Source: a virus
Direction: 5' to 3' (one strand)
Length of the DNA: 22,957 nucleotides
Virus record (IMG/VR): IMGVR_UViG_3300028766_000108
Coordinates: 1 to 22,957 of that record
Position numbers and translations under genes: made by a program. Of the stretch, positions 1 through 9,725 are shown piece by piece; position 1 is the stretch's first letter; each line of letters starts with the position of its first letter. The notes beneath the pieces were generated by a model. The model had not been told where the DNA came from and did not search any database. It was given only the letters and a program-made list of their open reading frames with translations.

Positions 1-3000
1 TTCCAATAGCTCCCATAATAATTGGTTGACACGCTGTTGTAATTTCCAGATGACGAGGTAGCGGTGCCCAACGAAAACCATTCTACACTTGACGCTAATA
101 TCTGCGCTATGTTCTTTCCGGCGATCTGAACGTAGTAGGACCCGGAGCTTGCATTGAAAACGGTGTAACTGCCAGACTGAGTGATCCCGAACGTAGTTCC
201 GCTCCCATTATTAAGCGTCAACTGCGGGCCTGTAGAGTTACTTATTGTTTGATTAGCCGTGAAGGTGTTGGCTGATCCCGTTCCAACTAGCCCGAGAGAG
301 GCAAGAGACTTAGGACCGTATGAACCCCCGCTCAAGCCTGTGCCAATCAAGTAGTTGGCAGGTTGTGCGTTTCCGGAAGGTAGGAGTAGGGCCGAACCGA
401 CACCATAAAGTCCTCCACTCGTACTTGTAAGCGACTCAGACCCCCCGTAAATCCAACTGAATGGATTAGACCCGGAGCCAAGGAAAACGGTAGCCCCGCT
501 CGACGGAGAAAAATAGTAGTAGCTCCCGCTTGGGAAAAAGGATAATGGAGAACCAGTTGTATTCTGTAAATTTCCGAGATTCAAGGTCGCAAGGTTGGCT
601 TGAGGAGCGTTGATGATCCCCATCCCCATGCTAATGTTACCGCTGAACCATCCTATCTGCGCGTTGACCAGGGCGACCGGATTACCAGCACTTCCGTATT
701 GTGACTGAGTCGTGGAGGTTGGCAAGGTGCTGGGAAGCCGCGCGGAGCCATCTGGCAAGCCTGTGAATGCGGGTGCCTGGGCGGAAGAGGGGTTATAGTT
801 CGCGGTGACATAAGTTGCTACGGCGGTTGCTATGTATTGTCCTCCGCACCAACCATTGGGATTGTTGGCGTTTCCTCCGGTAAGGGATGCTATGCAAGGG
901 GTAGCCATGTGCAGGTGATCCACATTGTAAGCCGGTACGCCTGCACTGTGGGCTTCGTTGTTGCCTATGCCTAATCGGTTGACAGTATAGGTGATCGTAC
1001 CTGGGCAGCTTCCGCTTGCGGCTGTGATGAATGCCAACTCCTGATTGGCTCCAGTATCAAAAACAAGCATATCTTCATTTAGAGGAATGGAACCACCTAC
1101 ACAAGTCATCTGTATAGATGTGTCAGTCGCGCCAATCGCATTGGTTAGTGTCCCGTAGCCGTACACAGCGCGAAGAGAAGATGGCTCAACGAGATGAATT
1201 GTGGCGTCTTCGATGTCTACCGCCGACGTTGGGTCGTAAGCGGCCAACATCGGAGTATTCACGTTGATAAAGTGCGATCCAAAAGTGCTTTGCTCCCAAG
1301 CATTGAGCTGCTGATTAATCGTCCAAAACTGGCCGCCAGACCAATTAACTGCGGAGTTTCCGTTGTCGTATGTGTTCGACCAGACTGCATAAAGCTCCCA
1401 CGGTGGCACATTCGCTACTGATGCCAGAAGATTCTGGTAGACGTACTGCGGTGCTTGTTGCGAGACGTTGTGCCCCATGCCGAAGATCTGAGCGACGGCG
1501 TTGCGACTCGGTTGGTCCGGTATGAACTGCGCTCCATAAATATTATTCACTGAGACAGGTGATCCCGTACCGTCCGGTACCCAAGCGCAGCAGCCTGAGC
1601 TATACGTTGCCTTCCCTGGAACTCCACCCCATGTGCCATGAAGATATTGACCCGTAGTGCTAGCATTCACTGGCTCCCAGCCAACTGTGAATGTCATGGT
1701 AGCTGTGCCGGTAATGGGAATCGTTCCCGTAGAGGATATTGCATAGGTGGGGACCGCGCCGATGCGTGCCGCGATCTGGCCTGGAGACTGGCCGGAATCC
1801 CCCAAATTGGTTACGGTGAGACCTGATGGCAATGGAGCGTATGCATTGCCTAAGAGTGGGCCATAGGTTGTTTGTGTCAGCGAGTCGCCGATGATGGCTA
1901 CGGTTGCCAAAGCAGAGGGGGTAGCGCCAGCCGCGACGTTGCCTGAGAACATCGCATTTCCTGAATCGTCAATCTTCCACATATAAGCACTGTTGCTGCT
2001 GTTCGCTCCATATACTTCTGCTCGCGTGTCATTGGCGGCAGGAACAATAGCGATAGCAGTCTGTGTGAGGCTAGGATACAAAGTAAGTGCATTAGCCTGT
2101 AAAGTATAGAAATTAAACGCATCGCTCGAATAATTCTGAATATAATCTGCCCCGAGCGTATCTATGCTTGTTCCATTTAATAGTCCTTGTACCCAGTTCA
2201 CGTTTACTCTTCCGGAAACCGAACTTGACGGCACATACCAGGAATATGCCGAATCGTAAATATTGAAATTGAACGTGTTGGCATCAATATTCGCAGTAGC
2301 GGTCGTAGTTGTTGTGGCAGATATTCCAATAGATGAAGGGGTTCCATTTCCTTCAAAAAACCCCTCAAATGTATTCGCCTCGATTTGTTTTCCTGCATTT
2401 AAAAGAGTGATCCCAGTGGCGGGAATTGAGGTAGATACGGCAAGAAAAGTCAGGCCCTTAAACTCATTTGCGTTAATCCAACCACCATTCGAGGTTGAAA
2501 GAACCAATGGCCGCAAAACGCCGTTAGTGTACATTCCATTGACATGGGTATACGCCGCGCCATAGTTCAAAGTTGGGCAGTTAATAAGTAGTCCTATTCC
2601 TGGCGCTGAAGTTGCTCCATCAATAGATAAATTATCAATTTCAGGCCCTATAATTGGCCCCCCGGTGGTGCAGGTAAAACTTACCGCACTTCCAGAATAC
2701 GTGATTGGATAATTCCCCAGCCCAACATGAAGTCCTTTGAGAATACTCCCTCCCACTACATGCACCACGTCTGATGACACTGCTGCGGGAATAATTGTCG
2801 TTGCATCCGAGAAATCAAGCTCTTGGCCAGCAGTTAGGGAAATCGTCCCGGCAAGAACCTGCGTAGTAGTTCCAAGGCAACTTGCATCTACCTTACCCAG
2901 AGACAATGGGAGTGATGCAAAGGCATTCGCTATTTTCACATCGGCAGTCGAGCCTGAAAAATAACAGGCTGACACACCGTTATTGACCAAAGGGGATGTA

Positions 3001-3626
3001 ATCGCAGCGCCCGCCGTGACGGTGCCTGGGAATGTGCAAACTTGCGATGATCCTGTACCAACGCAAGAGATTCCACTAGGAAGTGATCCTGTTACCCATG
3101 CAGTACCATTCCAGTACAGCTGAGTCTGATTGGTAACACTCCAGTAAGTGCCGCCAACAGGATAAGTAAGAATTGCTTCCACATTTGCATAACCATACGC
3201 TCCAGCGATCGCATTGAAGCGTGGGGCTAGGATGTTTGCATCTACGAGAGTTGAAATATTCTGCGAGACTCCAGAAATAGGTGTTGTTGTGATACCGCAT
3301 TTTGACTGCGCTAACGGACACACAGTGAACTGCCACTGGCTTCCTACAGGAGTTATTTTGCTGTTATCATAGACAGAAAGTGAAAAAGAACTTGTTCCAT
3401 CTAAAGTAACAGGTCCTTGATTCAATATCGATGGAGAAAGAGGTGCTCCATTAATATTGTAGATGCTGATATTTGGTTGAGCAGAATTAGGTACGAACTG
3501 TACCGTGACCGAGCCATTTGACCAAAGCGTTCCATCGCTATCTGTGACTGTTGCGGTTACGTTAGTTGTCTGAGCCGCTGTAATAGTGGCAAAAAGAAAA
3601 AAGAAACATGCAAACTTCTTCAACAT
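1..3626 (-). CDS. Tail fibre/spike with SGNH hydrolase domain (partial)
   Basis: The frame is open from the ATG at 3626 to the window edge: at least 1,208 residues, with the C-terminus missing. In order: a Sec-type signal peptide (MLKKFACFFFLFATITAAQ, cleavage probably near residues 18-19); an N-terminal domain with VTDSDGTLWSNGSVTVQF and two Cys; an Asn/Thr/Gly-rich beta-helix region (about 210-540); and a hydrolase with GDSLT (Ser582), NLGDSGQSPGQIAARIG, VWSNTYDNG (Asn751) and NVDHLH (Asp903, His906). Those match blocks of SGNH/GDSL esterases, which remove acyl groups from host polysaccharide. A beta domain seems inserted before DHLH. The C-terminal part reads as fibre. The start has AAGGAG five bases upstream. 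The active-site Asn and the host ligand are inferred. Confidence 0.8.
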   Translation of the reverse strand, partial: MLKKFACFFFLFATITAAQTTNVTATVTDSDGTLWSNGSVTVQFVPNSAQPNISIYNINGAPLSPSILNQGPVTLDGTSSFSLSVYDNSKITPVGSQWQFTVCPLAQSKCGITTTPISGVSQNISTLVDANILAPRFNAIAGAYGYANVEAILTYPVGGTYWSVTNQTQLYWNGTAWVTGSLPSGISCVGTGSSQVCTFPGTVTAGAAITSPLVNNGVSACYFSGSTADVKIANAFASLPLSLGKVDASCLGTTTQVLAGTISLTAGQELDFSDATTIIPAAVSSDVVHVVGGSILKGLHVGLGNYPITYSGSAVSFTCTTGGPIIGPEIDNLSIDGATSAPGIGLLINCPTLNYGAAYTHVNGMYTNGVLRPLVLSTSNGGWINANEFKGLTFLAVSTSIPATGITLLNAGKQIEANTFEGFFEGNGTPSSIGISATTTTTATANIDANTFNFNIYDSAYSWYVPSSSVSGRVNVNWVQGLLNGTSIDTLGADYIQNYSSDAFNFYTLQANALTLYPSLTQTAIAIVPAANDTRAEVYGANSSNSAYMWKIDDSGNAMFSGNVAAGATPSALATVAIIGDSLTQTTYGPLLGNAYAPLPSGLTVTNLGDSGQSPGQIAARIGAVPTYAISSTGTIPITGTATMTFTVGWEPVNASTTGQYLHGTWGGVPGKATYSSGCCAWVPDGTGSPVSVNNIYGAQFIPDQPSRNAVAQIFGMGHNVSQQAPQYVYQNLLASVANVPPWELYAVWSNTYDNGNSAVNWSGGQFWTINQQLNAWEQSTFGSHFINVNTPMLAAYDPTSAVDIEDATIHLVEPSSLRAVYGYGTLTNAIGATDTSIQMTCVGGSIPLNEDMLVFDTGANQELAFITAASGSCPGTITYTVNRLGIGNNEAHSAGVPAYNVDHLHMATPCIASLTGGNANNPNGWCGGQYIATAVATYVTANYNPSSAQAPAFTGLPDGSARLPSTLPTSTTQSQYGSAGNPVALVNAQIGWFSGNISMGMGIINAPQANLATLNLGNLQNTTGSPLSFFPSGSYYYFSPSSGATVFLGSGSNPFSWIYGGSESLTSTSGGLYGVGSALLLPSGNAQPANYLIGTGLSGGSYGPKSLASLGLVGTGSANTFTANQTISNSTGPQLTLNNGSGTTFGITQSGSYTVFNASSGSYYVQIAGKNIAQILASSVEWFSLGTATSSSGNYNSVSTNYYGSYW

Positions 3627-3636
3627 AAAAATCTCC

Positions 3637-4203
3637 TTACAACCAACTGTTAGTTTCAAGAAACTGGTATCTCTTGAGAGTTGATTTGGTAATGTCTGTG
3701 CGATATTGCATGTTTGGGATGTTGATACGACCGATTCTTCTATCACAAGAGCTTGAGGCTTCTTCGATGGAAGAGCCGACTCCAATGGGAGCGCAGATAT
3801 ACCCATAGTTGCCGCTTGTTATGAGTTTCTTGCCATCTTTTGCAAGCTTTACATCGAACAAATACGTGTTTACAAGCTGCTCAAGATCCTCAGGATCAAG
3901 CCCTTCTACTGGTACATCTTTCGCTTTTGGAAGCCGTAGCTCTGTCGGATACGGCGGTATTGAGAGCGTAACAGATACTCCGAACGGAGCAGTCCATTTA
4001 ATCTCCGGCGTCTTTCCAGCGGCGATATTTTGAAGAAGTTTCGCATATCCATGTCCATACATCGTTGCAATTGTGGGACAGCACAAGTAACCAAAGCGAG
4101 GAGTCCATTCTAGAGCATAGAGCTTATCTTCGGTTACGATAGAGTTGAGATCGAGAATTCCTCTAAAGCCAACAGCTTGCAAGAATGGGATCGCTTTCTT
4201 CAA
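3637..4203 (-). CDS. PurD-like ATP-grasp ligase, C-terminal part (frame-broken)
   Basis: This frame supplies the C-terminal half of the ATP-grasp enzyme. Upstream of the only start I can propose (TTG at 4203), the frame already encodes GPNTGCSGNLIFALSDESR, which matches the PurD GPNTG-x-MG segment; so the domain continues across the break. Further on, LDLNSIVTEDKLYALEWTPRFG carries the metal- and phosphate-binding E-x-x-P-R-x-G pattern (Glu32, Arg36 of this fragment). Joined, the protein would be about 429 residues, the usual PurD length. Alone, the fragment could be restarted weakly at TTG, with GGGAGGG very close upstream. The stop lies in the TAAGGAG site of the tail-fibre gene. Confidence 0.72.
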   Translation of the reverse strand: MKKAIPFLQAVGFRGILDLNSIVTEDKLYALEWTPRFGYLCCPTIATMYGHGYAKLLQNIAAGKTPEIKWTAPFGVSVTLSIPPYPTELRLPKAKDVPVEGLDPEDLEQLVNTYLFDVKLAKDGKKLITSGNYGYICAPIGVGSSIEEASSSCDRRIGRINIPNMQYRTDITKSTLKRYQFLETNSWL

Positions 4204-4922
4204 TCCCTCCCTGTAGATTCTTGATTCATCCGAGAGTGCAAAAATGAGATTTCCAGAACAACCTGTGTTTGGACCTTTTCTTCCAACGTGCCAGTTAGAA
4301 GATAAAAATCAGTCCCATTAAAAAACCCTTCTATCCCAATCTCCTGCCCTTTGACAAACTCTTGCAGGATAAAAGGAGCATGTTTAGCAGCATTCCACAA
4401 AGTGTCGATATACTCAATAAGATCAGCCGCGCTTTTTGCAACGTAGGTGGTGGCTGTGTCCTGAGTCTGGCCTCCTTCTGTAAAAGGCTTAAATACATAC
4501 GGTCTGTCATTCTTTCGTAGAAAAGCCTTAGCCTCAGTGGGCGTGTTAAATCTGGTATATGGGGGTACATTGATTCCGCAGTCCTCCATGGCTTTAAGGC
4601 CAGCTTCTCTGTCGTCCTCGAGCAAATGCTCGAAAGAACCGTCACCGAGTGTGGCTGCTTGCATCCTTGAAGCATCAGCTTGTTTCGCTTTGCCGGTAAG
4701 ATCAAACAGCGATAAATCATATCCAGCATAATCAGGATATCCAAATCCTGCCACTGTACGCCGATGATCTAGCGATAGCTTCTTGGGGGGTGGTATTAGC
4801 CCCCCAAGAACATCCACGTAGTCAGATTTGGATAGGTAGTAATCTACATCGTGGCCTTCTGCAAGGAGCCGAAGTACAAACCACGCTCCCAAGCCTGTAT
4901 ACGAGGACATTGCTATTTTCAT
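4200..4922 (-). CDS. PurD-like ATP-grasp ligase, N-terminal part (frame-broken)
   Basis: This frame encodes 240 residues, of which about the first 216 belong to an ATP-grasp enzyme related to phosphoribosylamine-glycine ligase. Seen: a short N-terminal domain (about 1-110), GINVPPYTRF (about 116-125), the ATP-grasp lysine in YVFKPFTEGG (Lys145), and ILQEFVKGQEIGIEGFFNG (about 185-203), like PurD E-(F/Y)-x-x-G-x-E. After LTGTLEEK the family sequence continues in the -1 frame, and the last 24 residues here are out-of-frame nonsense. ATP-grasp enzymes join a carboxylate to an amine using ATP; a role in purine synthesis or in modifying a virion part is open. The start has TAAGGAG from the 49-residue gene's stop. 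An 11-bp hairpin lies near codon 40. Confidence 0.75.
   Translation of the reverse strand: MKIAMSSYTGLGAWFVLRLLAEGHDVDYYLSKSDYVDVLGGLIPPPKKLSLDHRRTVAGFGYPDYAGYDLSLFDLTGKAKQADASRMQAATLGDGSFEHLLEDDREAGLKAMEDCGINVPPYTRFNTPTEAKAFLRKNDRPYVFKPFTEGGQTQDTATTYVAKSAADLIEYIDTLWNAAKHAPFILQEFVKGQEIGIEGFFNGTDFYLLTGTLEEKVQTQVVLEISFLHSRMNQESTGRD
4274..4281 (-). other. Frame break in the ATP-grasp gene (AAAAGG)
   Basis: The coding strand reads GAA-GAA-AAG-GTC, but the family continues as GGT-CCA-AAC-ACA-GGT. The frames differ by one base at an AAAA run (4276-4279). A lost A (sequencing or real mutation), or a -1 slip on A-AAG, would restore one protein. Confidence 0.7.
4780..4810 (-). other. Perfect 11-bp hairpin inside the ATP-grasp gene
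   Basis: The arms TTCTTGGGGGG and CCCCCCAAGAA pair perfectly across a 9-base loop. The hairpin encodes Leu-Gly-Gly...Pro-Pro-Pro-Lys-Lys near codons 39-48. No U-tract follows. A role in pausing or RNA stability is only a suggestion. Confidence 0.55.
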
Positions 4923-5100: not shown

Positions 5101-6957
5101 TTATTGATTGATTGTTTTAGCAGGGAATAGCTGGTTAGCTATAATATTACCTGCTCCTGGAACTGTTTGTTGAAGAACATCCTTAGCAAGCGGTTTGATG
5201 TTATGCTTGCCAGTCTGAGTAGACTTCGTTGTGAGGTTGATAGTATCTTGAGCAGTACGTACAGCATCTCCAGCAATCGGACCCATTAAAGCAAGTGCGA
5301 GTCTGTCACCATGAGCAGCCCCAATAAAGGAGTGCATGATGCCCCAAGAACCGAAGTATGAAAGCATATCAAGATACTCCGAACTAAACTGTGCCAGATC
5401 CTCTGGATGTTGCAGTCGCTGATAGTCTTCTTTCAAACCTTGGCCAGCTTGTTTTGGATTCGCAGTTCGTGCAAAAACCTCGGCGGCTTTAAGCATCGGT
5501 GCAATGGTAGGAAACATTAAACCAATAGTACCAGCATAGCGAGCAATACCAACATAATCTCCACCTTCGAGTTTCTTCTGAAGTTCTCGTCGCATAAAGC
5601 GTTGCTGACTTGACACATATCCATGAAACATGGTAAGCATTCGTGTCCATGGATTACGCGTAGCGTTCAACGAGCGATCAAAAGGTCGAGAGATAAATGC
5701 GCGATTGTTTGTGAAGTGGTAGATCGCTTTGACTTTTTCTTCTCGTGTAAGTTGACCTCCACGTTTTACAATCTCACCAACATCTAAGCCGAGATCCTTT
5801 AATTCGATCCCAGCCATTTTATCACCTTGAGCAGCTTTCTCCGCCCAGTACTGCGCAGCATGATAACCCATTGTGGCGGCAGCTTTCAATTGCACATTGC
5901 GGATGAAATTGAAACCTGGATTATGAAAGATTTGATTGTACAATCTTCCGACTTCAGGCTGACCGATTTTCGTAACAAGTGGATTTTTCTCGCTTGACAT
6001 GTCATCAAGAAGCATATGAAAATGTTGTGATGTAAATACTGCTGCGGCATCGGTAAGCTCTTTGATTTCGCCATTTTCCATGCCCATCATAGATTTGTAG
6101 ATGCTAGCTAGTGGCGTTGCTGAAAGAGGATTAAAAAACGTACTCATGTGATTGACCGCAATCATAGGAGCAAGAAAGATTCTAGCCCGCTTTGAGGCAA
6201 ACTGTTCTATTGCATTAGAGCGTTCGTGCACACTAGCGGTGTCGAGTTTCTTTAGGTCAATATGAAGAGGTTCCTGGCCTTGGGCTTGTCGAAACTTATT
6301 CTCAAGCATCAACGCATTTTTCATATTAAGTTTAGTTCTAGATTGATCCACGCCAGAAGCTGAGACACCTTCTGAGCCAATTTCCAAAGGTCTAGTAGAG
6401 TCGTGGAACTGGTTCGAGGCAATATCAAGTAATGCTTGTGCATGTGCCTCAGAGAAAGGATCGCCTTTCTCGTAAAGTGGCATTATATCACCTATGAGAT
6501 TGGCATGGTTTTCTCCCATGACTTGCTGCTGTGCAAGCAAGCGTGCTTGAGAACCAAGCTTAATCGTATAGTCTTGCAATGTCATATCCGCATTTGCAGG
6601 ATCAAGAGCGATGATTTTTGCTGCTTGAGAAGCTGCGGGGTGGTTTTGAACTTTGAGATCTGAATGAACCTTTCCAAGAGTAGAATGAAGCTGCGTAGGA
6701 TCATTTTTAATAACCTCATGCACAGCATCCGCAGGCTTGAGAAGGTCACCTAAAATCTGCTGGCGTCGAAAATCATAATCAACCAGCCGCGTACCGACTT
6801 TCATTCCTTCTGGAGAACGCTTGAATTCCTCAGCTTGCGCTAGAAAAGTCTCACGTCCGAGCTTGGCTGTACCAGATTTCTCTGCGCTTTCACCAAGTTT
6901 AGAGTAAGCATCTTTAGCAAGACTTCCTAAAGCATCTGCTGCACCGCCAATTCCCAT
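5101..6957 (-). CDS. Internal virion / ejection protein
   Basis: The 618-residue product begins MGIGGAADALGSL and is mostly helix. Three hydrophobic stretches stand out: about residues 258-290 (RIFLAPMIAVNHMSTFFNPL), 473-497 (YAGTIGLMFPTIAPMLKAAE), and 533-566 (SYFGSWGIMHSFIGAA). A segment NPWTRMLTMFHGYVSSQQRF (about 434-453) and the ending VPGAGNIIANQLF resemble, from memory, the C-terminal ends of very large podovirus internal proteins. Together with its 922-residue neighbour it looks like one long T7 gp16-type protein split in two. The start has AGGAGGT five bases before a TAATG overlap. Function in DNA ejection is inferred from order, size and membrane-like segments. Confidence 0.6.
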   Translation of the reverse strand: MGIGGAADALGSLAKDAYSKLGESAEKSGTAKLGRETFLAQAEEFKRSPEGMKVGTRLVDYDFRRQQILGDLLKPADAVHEVIKNDPTQLHSTLGKVHSDLKVQNHPAASQAAKIIALDPANADMTLQDYTIKLGSQARLLAQQQVMGENHANLIGDIMPLYEKGDPFSEAHAQALLDIASNQFHDSTRPLEIGSEGVSASGVDQSRTKLNMKNALMLENKFRQAQGQEPLHIDLKKLDTASVHERSNAIEQFASKRARIFLAPMIAVNHMSTFFNPLSATPLASIYKSMMGMENGEIKELTDAAAVFTSQHFHMLLDDMSSEKNPLVTKIGQPEVGRLYNQIFHNPGFNFIRNVQLKAAATMGYHAAQYWAEKAAQGDKMAGIELKDLGLDVGEIVKRGGQLTREEKVKAIYHFTNNRAFISRPFDRSLNATRNPWTRMLTMFHGYVSSQQRFMRRELQKKLEGGDYVGIARYAGTIGLMFPTIAPMLKAAEVFARTANPKQAGQGLKEDYQRLQHPEDLAQFSSEYLDMLSYFGSWGIMHSFIGAAHGDRLALALMGPIAGDAVRTAQDTINLTTKSTQTGKHNIKPLAKDVLQQTVPGAGNIIANQLFPAKTINQ

Positions 6958-9725
6958 TACTGACCTCCTGCTTGAGCCAGTGTCTCACGTACTCGTTTCA
7001 TGATTTTTGTTACTTCGGTCGAGTTGCCTTTGAGGTATGCAGCTGTTTCACGTTCATGTAAGAGCGTAAGCGTATTCTGATATCTCGACCTAGCTTCTAC
7101 GGCAGCTTTGGAACGGCCAGGGAAGAAAGTTTTTACTTGCTTCAAATCATATTGCTGTGCGCTTTCTATGAGTTTCTTATCTCGTTGCCAAGGAGAAAGC
7201 GAGTCTGAACCTTTTATTCCAGGTTGTGTGGAGCGGAAAGCATTGCGTTGGCCAAGTTCTTTGTACCATTTCGAACGTGTGAAAATATCGATATGATTTT
7301 GGATTGCTTGTGAAAATTCTTCAATACCTGCTGTTGTTGTCTTACGACCTAGAAGCGTTCTCATCTTAGGACTGTTCATAAGAACATCTTCCAGTTTCCT
7401 TGCTACAGGTTTTGGAAGTCTGTCCTTGTAGGAGTACATGTATGCTAAAAAGTTAGTCCAGTCTCCACCTTCAGCATTGGATTTCTCAAACTGGATACCG
7501 GACTCTTTGAGGGGATTGAAGTACTCTCGCAAATCCTCTGCTAGAGCATGTGCAGCACTCACATCATCATCTGTCTTTCCAGCAAGTGTATCTACATATT
7601 CTTGCCAGAATTTTGGAGAATTCTTTCCACCTTTTGCAGTAGCAGCCTTGTCTGCGGCAACTTTCCAGTTAAAAGAAATAGCCATTTGATAACCAGTGAC
7701 TTTGCCTGATTTATCATAGTCATAACGAGAGTCAGTGTGTTGAGACGCCGTTTTTATAGAGGGCGCTTTTGGTTGATTCTTCGCAACGTTCTCTGGCCCA
7801 GTTACAGTCCTGGCTTCTGCCGCCTTCTTCACAGCTTCTACTCGCCGCTTGAGCATCGCAGCTTTAGCAACCACCGGCGCTTTCTCAGCACCACCAGGAT
7901 GATTTTTGAATACTTCTTGTGCTTTTGCAAGTTCTTGTTTCCATTCTGCTTGTCCTTCTGGGGTTTTCATATACTCATCTACAAGTTCCTGCCCTTTCAT
8001 TTGCTGAACTTGCGGCACATCAGAATCCATTCTCGATGCCGCTTTGTCAAGCTGTCCATCAAGAAACCCGCGAAGATCACCCCACCTAGCATCATCAGGT
8101 TTGAACTCTGAAATTTTCCATCCCTGCCGGTCAAGAAACTGACGAATGATTCTCATATTAGAGAATACTGTCTTCCACTTCACAGGATCCTTGTCGCTCA
8201 TATCCTGATGAAATTTAAGCCTGTCAAGTTCCTCCATCGGAGCTTTTTCTTCCATTGTAACATGAGCAAGAGCCTCTTCAATAATGGAAGATGCCGCCGG
8301 CCTACCACCCGCCGCCATTACAGAAGCCATGTGAGTCTGATATTGTTCCAAGTACTCTTCTGATGTAGCGCTACGTTTTCCTTGAGCACCTAGATCGGCC
8401 TCATGCTCTGCGGCGGCCATAGCATCTTTCTCGACTCCTTCAGGGAGATGATCGACAAGCTTAGCCGCACCTTTTCCAGCCATAGAAAAGAGAGTGCCCA
8501 TAGCTGCAAATTGAAGTCCCATTTTCCAAGCATCTTTTTTGTCTTCTGAGTCTAGCGTCAGTTCTCCAAAAGCCAACCCCTCTGTACCATAAGTAAGCAT
8601 CTTCGCCGCGGTCTGGCCTACCTTTGATGCGCCGAGAGTCTCCGTGAGATTGGCTAGCATCGGTACGCCTTCAGCAGTGGTTTTTGCAAGTCCAATTCCC
8701 AATTCGGTAGCTTTTCCAATACCGCTAAACAGCGGCAGCAGCATGGCATTCTCCACTACAAACGAAGAGGCTTTCTCGGTAAAGGTTCTAGCAGGTGTTA
8801 CACCAGACCAGAAGTCCTCTTGAGATGCTATGTCATGCATCCACTTTGAACCCCCAGTAGGATTTCGTTCGCCTGTGTCTTCGATTGCTTTGGCTATCCC
8901 GGTAACAAGTCCACTCTCTTTTACTCGATTGTGCATATTCAAATAAAGATTTTGCCATCCAACAAGACCTGTAAAGTCTCCGCTGCGAATGGAGTCTTCC
9001 ATAGCTACTATAGGAAGACCGGTAATATTTGTGATTGTACGAAGCGCATTTGCAGTTTCTCCAATAGCACTGTCTAAGCCTTCGAGAGCGCCTTTAACCA
9101 TTGGATTTCTATAGGCTTGTGCTGGATCATAAGACAGCCCAGATTTCCAAGCGTTACGAAGCCATAAATCCCTTGATAACGGTGCAGCACCCATCTTCTG
9201 ATACAGCGGCGCTAGAGCCTCATCGTAGTATCTTGAGGCGAGAGCGAGCTTTTCTGAGTCGGTTTTTCCTGCAAACTTCGGTGCTTCTTGTGACCAGCGA
9301 CTCAAACTGTTTGCAAGTCCATCATAAGGATCATCAAACAAGAAAGGATTCAGGCTGGTATCCTTCACAGCTTGTATCTTCTCTTTGGATTGCAGAGAGT
9401 TGATACTGTGATACTGCTGTTTGATCTCAGCAACCTTCGACTGTTGGATAAAATCAGCCATGCCTTCTTGCAATGCGAAACGAAGGTTAGTCTGAGGCTG
9501 GCTTATCTGGATCGAAGAACCGCTTGATTTTCCTGGCGCCTTGATTGATTGTGTCGATGGTCTGCTCGGCATCATGGCTGATGATACCCGCGCCGTAGTG
9601 GCCTTTAATAAGGAGTCTGTCTGCTGTTGAAACGCTTGACTTCCAGGGCTTGCCTGTTCTTGGATCGAGGTCGGCACTGCTCCCTGTGCCGGTGCTTGTG
9701 GTTGCGCTTCCTGTGCTTGTGCCAT
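6957..9725 (-). CDS. Large internal virion / ejection protein
   Basis: I place the start at 9725 (922 residues, MAQAQEAQPQ), where GGAG sits six bases upstream; an in-frame ATG at 9737 is possible, and one at 9462 would avoid the overlap. The first 80 residues are Gln/Ser/Pro-rich and overlap the upstream gene. A helical region follows (KLALASRYYDEALAPLYQKM, about residues 160-178). A hydrophobic, Gly/Ala-rich stretch at about 320-420 (VVENAMLLPLFSGIGK; LQFAAMGTLFSMAGKG) could insert into a membrane. The rest is charged helix. This fits the giant ejection proteins of podoviruses. No lytic transglycosylase or other enzyme motif was recognised. The stop overlaps the next start (TAATG). Confidence 0.62.
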   Translation of the reverse strand: MAQAQEAQPQAPAQGAVPTSIQEQASPGSQAFQQQTDSLLKATTARVSSAMMPSRPSTQSIKAPGKSSGSSIQISQPQTNLRFALQEGMADFIQQSKVAEIKQQYHSINSLQSKEKIQAVKDTSLNPFLFDDPYDGLANSLSRWSQEAPKFAGKTDSEKLALASRYYDEALAPLYQKMGAAPLSRDLWLRNAWKSGLSYDPAQAYRNPMVKGALEGLDSAIGETANALRTITNITGLPIVAMEDSIRSGDFTGLVGWQNLYLNMHNRVKESGLVTGIAKAIEDTGERNPTGGSKWMHDIASQEDFWSGVTPARTFTEKASSFVVENAMLLPLFSGIGKATELGIGLAKTTAEGVPMLANLTETLGASKVGQTAAKMLTYGTEGLAFGELTLDSEDKKDAWKMGLQFAAMGTLFSMAGKGAAKLVDHLPEGVEKDAMAAAEHEADLGAQGKRSATSEEYLEQYQTHMASVMAAGGRPAASSIIEEALAHVTMEEKAPMEELDRLKFHQDMSDKDPVKWKTVFSNMRIIRQFLDRQGWKISEFKPDDARWGDLRGFLDGQLDKAASRMDSDVPQVQQMKGQELVDEYMKTPEGQAEWKQELAKAQEVFKNHPGGAEKAPVVAKAAMLKRRVEAVKKAAEARTVTGPENVAKNQPKAPSIKTASQHTDSRYDYDKSGKVTGYQMAISFNWKVAADKAATAKGGKNSPKFWQEYVDTLAGKTDDDVSAAHALAEDLREYFNPLKESGIQFEKSNAEGGDWTNFLAYMYSYKDRLPKPVARKLEDVLMNSPKMRTLLGRKTTTAGIEEFSQAIQNHIDIFTRSKWYKELGQRNAFRSTQPGIKGSDSLSPWQRDKKLIESAQQYDLKQVKTFFPGRSKAAVEARSRYQNTLTLLHERETAAYLKGNSTEVTKIMKRVRETLAQAGGQ

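Follow-up and report, generated by a model that had tools for sequence, protein, structure and literature searches.

Signal peptides and even cysteine counts suggest export of a family of tail-fibre-like proteins in uncultured podoviruses

Tailed phages assemble in the cytoplasm of their hosts, and so, normally, do their tail fibres. The viral DNA analyzed here (the window: the whole stretch of 22,957 nucleotides, positions 1 to 22,957 of IMG/VR record IMGVR_UViG_3300028766_000108) carries a fibre-like gene that opens with a putative Sec signal peptide, which raises the question of what an export signal is doing on a tail fibre. In answer we propose, tentatively and with somewhat less than even confidence, that in a class of soil podoviruses the receptor-binding fibres mature outside the cytoplasm: the fibres would be Sec-exported, locked by disulphides and attached to virions no earlier than lysis, with assembly split between two compartments.

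The fibre gene and its surroundings

The fibre-like open reading frame occupies positions 3626..3 on the minus strand. It starts with an ATG at 3626-3624, has the N-terminus MLKKFACFFFLFATITAAQTTNV and comprises 1208 aa inside the window before continuing past the contig end. A Shine-Dalgarno sequence (AAGGAG, 3633..3638, minus strand, read from the sequence) precedes the ATG with a spacer of 6 nt, and AGGAGG or a similar motif is found at the matching position in relatives, being strong in the closer ones. Homologues starting downstream of the hydrophobic stretch at a well-placed ATG, which the first-pass annotation had named as evidence against its own reading, were looked for, and the relatives instead keep the signal-bearing start. 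A wrong start codon is thus ruled out by the Shine-Dalgarno sequence and the homologues.

The fibre gene is the last of the late operon in the window and in most relatives, placed after large late-operon proteins and beside other virion genes. Directly upstream in most relatives lies a PurD-like ATP-grasp gene (∼435 aa); in the window (3637..4922, minus strand) a frameshift divides it into two ORFs, and 22 bp are absent near 4275 compared with a sister contig. An Rfam search of the window returned no match.

From residue 1, the fibre reads MLKKFACFFFLFATITAA followed by QTTNVTATVTDSDG. The first of these stretches is the predicted Sec/signal peptidase I signal peptide (residues 1-18; 3573..3626, minus strand), with cleavage predicted before Q19. 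Behind it come a mature N-terminal beta-sandwich domain predicted by AlphaFold2 (approximately residues 19-150; 3177..3572, minus strand), with a conserved cysteine pair (C103, C110), then a ∼1.1-kb module (1923..3023, minus strand) and an SGNH-esterase-like module (approximately residues 576-911; 894..1901, minus strand). The last assignment is made at the level of motifs, GDSL and DHLH in the translation suggesting an SGNH esterase; a Pfam search of the module gave no match, and PHROG 19652, a family whose function is not known, matches residues 576-819.

The ∼1.1-kb module is common, at >99% identity, to fibre genes A and B of the sister contig IMGVR_UViG_3300029915_001170, to which the window is identical over 12.4 kb (100%) and nearly so over 8.65 kb (99.7%). 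Through this module, window positions 1-1922 continue into the sister contig's different fibre gene (B), and either the window or the 99.6-kb sister contig is recombinant or mis-assembled there. In other relatives the fibre is directly followed by convergent genes, a layout that weakly favours the window. The 99.6-kb contig may consist of two ∼50 kb phages joined at the shared module; alternatively, the fibre in the window may be recombinant. Because of this possible recombination or mis-assembly, the fibre sequence beyond residue ∼568 is uncertain, and the SGNH-like part at 894..1901 may belong to another fibre gene.

A conserved signal peptide

The N-terminus displays a positively charged n-region (MLKK), a hydrophobic core (FACFFFLFATI) and a c-region (TAA before Q) with small residues at -3 and -1, as expected for Sec export and cleavage by signal peptidase I. 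Signal peptides were scored with our own rule-based scorer on genes called with a simple ORF/Shine-Dalgarno script. This scorer passes 0.36% of shuffled N-termini from signal-less phage genes and 3% of shuffles of the fibre's own N-terminus; homology is the stronger support. A scan of viral contigs with fibre residues 1-185 found 7 loci and a profile scan 21. Judged on relatives with a complete start, approximately 20 uncultured viral relatives open alike, with MKK, a variable hydrophobic core and a conserved Ala or Gly directly before Gln. The classic Sec signal peptide recognized in the first-pass annotation is therefore a conserved family trait, in agreement with the start and its Shine-Dalgarno sequence.

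Among the relatives' signals the core shows only 31% pairwise identity, yet 93% of its residues are apolar or small. The two lysines and the Ala-Gln step are nearly invariant, the Gln following Ala or Gly being invariant in the alignment and found at +1 of the conserved site in 13/13 family signals. The core thus keeps its hydrophobicity rather than its residues while the two ends are retained, an evolution typical of signal peptides; such drift would not be expected for a specific contact surface. Between close relatives the capsid protein is 92-96% identical, versus 51-59% for the fibre N-domain.

In 14 related loci, 17 of the 244 genes are scored as carrying a signal, namely 13 of the fibre family and 4 adjoining a family member; one more family member (G014) failed the cleavage-site test of our rule and was accepted by eye. 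T7, scored in the same way, yielded an Rz-type membrane protein only. A survey of five genomes, in which fibre-like proteins were listed from composition and our own gene calls, found the long Gly/Ser/Thr/Asn-rich fibre-looking proteins to be mostly signal-bearing. In the 99.6-kb sister contig it also found more signal-like genes, lying beyond the late operon; fibre clusters are thus where the trait is concentrated, but not the only place where it occurs. Several genomes hold 2-4 signal-bearing genes, most of them fibre-like (L037, 1922-10576; L058, 4138-8504; L075, 1823-7333), and in G013 and G019 two of them have the same N-domain. In the sister contig (L033), fibre A is followed by small signal-bearing genes at 8561-8818 (85 aa) and 6317-7138 (273 aa).

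Dense and even cysteines

The mature forms of signal-bearing late proteins contain 2.03 Cys per 100 aa, versus 0.63 in other late proteins (p 2e-10), and several large late proteins have no Cys at all. The mature Cys count is even in 23/25 signal-bearing proteins, compared with 41/81 signal-less controls (proteins with at least 4 Cys). In a second set, obtained with a protein of the cultured phage Tunturi 1 as query, it is even in 16/17. The binomial p values for parity (1e-5, 1e-4) are optimistic, as the counts include related proteins and overstate independence. A few Cys-rich proteins scored as signal-less lift the signal-less average of the second set to 0.64; in this set our script is suspected to have chosen a wrong start for L079, and the signal-less scores of L078 and L084, genes that run off their contigs, rest on incomplete genes. 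The pair C103/C110 is kept in 11 of the 12 aligned family members.

Since dense and even cysteines are a mark of full disulphide pairing, these figures support passage through an oxidising compartment. The first-pass annotation had found export odd for a tailed phage; we agree, and the cysteine statistics lend support to real export independently of the signal peptide. As judged from sequence, export of the signal-bearing fibre-like proteins is well supported. This conclusion does not depend on the C-terminal join in the window, since fibre B of the sister contig likewise opens with a signal-like start and has 14 Cys in its mature part. The combination of a signal peptide with dense, even cysteines could serve to mark such fibres in unannotated viral genomes.

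The domain behind the signal

AlphaFold2 models of the N-domain are of moderate quality, with pLDDT 75 when the signal is included and 80 without it. Searched against predicted viral structures, the mature N-domain matches tail-fibre and similar proteins with modest E-values (3e-4 to 8e-3). In two of these, LIT1 and RcapNL, the similar stretch begins at the protein's own N-terminus, signal-less. Profile-profile comparison of the N-domain with LIT1 and RcapNL was not significant (E 0.06-0.18), Pfam and PDB sequence searches with the domain returned nothing significant, and PDB fold searches gave no match at E ≤ 0.001, the best being intradiol dioxygenases (3e-3). From the structure predictions we consider, with moderate confidence, that the domain is an ordinary fibre N-domain placed behind a signal peptide.

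The relatives combine this conserved N-domain with differing C-terminal parts, including GGTGATTA repeats and pectate-lyase and BNR modules. The exchange of modules that separates window and sister contig may stem from the assembly; the module differences among the other relatives do not.

Origin of the N-terminus and possible hosts

The suggestion that the N-terminus was taken from a secreted host protein found no support. A scan of 84,980 bacterial and archaeal genomes, with a pattern filter that reaches close relatives only, found no relative, its pattern matches occurring at about the chance rate by our own estimate, and the predicted structure of the domain behind the signal is similar to that of ordinary phage fibre N-domains. 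A tblastn search of plasmids and annotated phages likewise gave no real match. Capture from a host gene was rejected accordingly, the sole later match being a phage contig in a metagenome-assembled genome (MAG), with two copies. That match came from a capsid-protein scan (one hit, 87% identical) and lies in a Sulfuriferula MAG (JARLJL010000016.1; L053/L058), where the phage contig carries two tandem signal-bearing fibres of the family. Since what was binned is an entire phage contig, this is weak evidence for Sulfuriferula as the host.

On the Granulicella tundricola plasmid pACIX901 (L048-L052), many predicted signal peptides end in Ala directly before Gln. With strict site choice, Gln stands at +1 in 31% of the Granulicella signals versus 8% in E. 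coli, and in a relaxed count of a small sample in 25/34 versus 7/17 (p 0.03), which is only suggestive of a Q-rule-like preference in Acidobacteriota. Bacteroidetes favour Gln at +1 of signal peptides (PMC5837995). By analogy, the Gln at +1 of the fibre would fit a host favouring this residue there, as Bacteroidetes do and the Granulicella plasmid suggests.

How an exported fibre might be used

The analysis shows a conserved signal peptide that is concentrated in genes of fibre type, together with the cysteine signature, the resemblance in fold and the modularity of the C-terminal parts. We favour a modular tail fibre or depolymerase that is Sec-exported, cleaved before Gln, folded and disulphide-locked outside the cytoplasm, and docked on virions at lysis, and we hold this to be very nearly an even call. 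Late in infection, the fibre would pass through the host Sec system and signal peptidase I would cut before Gln19, which may cyclise to pyroglutamate; cleavage would leave a first domain folded much like the N-domains of ordinary phage fibres. Outside the cytoplasm the fibre would fold, form its disulphides and probably trimerise. In the next step that we prefer, the exported fibres would remain in the periplasm or on the cell surface until lysis brings the contents of the two compartments together, and would then dock on virions. A role as a fibre is supported by the likeness of the N-domain fold to phage tail fibres, the repeats and the pectate-lyase and BNR modules of the relatives, the position of the gene behind the large late-operon proteins, the much higher identity of the capsid protein than of the fibre N-domain between close relatives, and the signals on most fibre-looking proteins of the five genomes. 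We know of no precedent for docking of fibres at lysis, and the open-access literature, covered mostly as titles and abstracts, yielded no account of tailed phages whose virion fibres carry a signal peptide.

The main competing explanation is that the proteins are exported and never join the virion, acting as secreted or surface-held late depolymerases or adhesins that would clear capsule or matrix for the progeny, coat the cell or block receptors. This is a serious possibility, if somewhat less probable than docking. The evidence for export (signal conservation, cysteine density and parity) speaks for it equally, as do the enzyme-like C-terminal modules (pectate lyase, BNR, SGNH motifs), the occurrence of several of these genes side by side in certain phages, and the signal-bearing Q-rule genes of Porphyromonas phages, whose function is not known (PMC10367356). 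Yet it would leave these phages, judged by composition only, without an obvious receptor-binding protein; a 713-aa late protein could fill that role instead of the fibre. The N-domain moreover resembles fibre N-domains, and virion receptor-binding proteins usually keep their N-domain while their C-terminal modules are exchanged.

It is improbable that the hydrophobic N-terminus serves another end than export, staying uncleaved as an anchor or assembly segment while the fibre is put together in the cytoplasm. Such a role would agree with where tail fibres are normally assembled, but the core conserves hydrophobicity and not residues between its fixed lysines and Ala-Gln step, the cysteines point to an oxidising compartment, and the LIT1 and RcapNL fibres of related fold start at the domain itself. 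A part in superinfection exclusion or lysogenic conversion, played from the surface of the infected cell, is less probable still, the genes lying at the end of the late operon, even though exported adhesive cell-surface fibres do exist in the MAT proteins of Bdellovibrio (PMC10769870).

Should the fibres reach the virion, as in the docking proposal, tailed-phage assembly would in some cases extend beyond the cytoplasm, and infection would depend on the host's Sec system, signal peptidase and disulphide machinery. Otherwise, much of the late-operon end is devoted to secreted proteins and the true receptor-binding proteins lie elsewhere.

Comparison with known systems

Tail fibres and SGNH-type tail proteins of N4-like phages (LIT1 ORF53, KPP21) and a 651-aa protein of RcapNL have an N-terminal beta-sandwich alike in predicted structure and the same build of a modular long fibre; unlike the window fibre, they are signal-less, and LIT1 has fewer cysteines (7 in 730 aa). 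The MAT fibres of Bdellovibrio are, by description, phage-fibre-like proteins in which a signal peptide is directly followed by a conserved beta-rich domain of ∼130 aa (PMC10769870), but they are bacterial proteins used in predation. The Q-rule proteins of Porphyromonas gingivalis phages have Sec signals ending before Gln and are not described as fibres (PMC10367356), while signal-bearing endolysins (Lys44, SAR endolysins; PMC6116005) are tailed-phage proteins exported by host Sec that act as lysis enzymes, not as fibres.

The closest cultured parallel is offered by Tunturi 1 and Tunturi 2, podoviruses of the acidobacterium Tunturiibacter (PMC11924767), which likewise have runs of Cys-rich, mostly even-Cys, signal-bearing fibre and spike genes. 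In each, a single stretch contains five such signal-bearing genes; their products are named tail fibre, tail spike/pectin lyase, virion structural protein or hypothetical protein, and 4/5 of the signals end in Ala before Gln. The link to Acidobacteriota phages mentioned in the first-pass annotation is indirect: it runs through this shared architecture and the frequent Gln at +1 on the Granulicella plasmid, but a tblastn search with the N-domain of a family member gave no match in the phage collection to which Tunturi 1 and 2 belong. The fibres of Tunturi 3, which grows on the same host strain, are signal-less and mostly Cys-poor, as are the examined tail genes of Tunturi 4 and 5. Since two cultured phages show the trait and another, from the same host strain, lacks it, the question of whether exported fibres reach the virion can be tested now.
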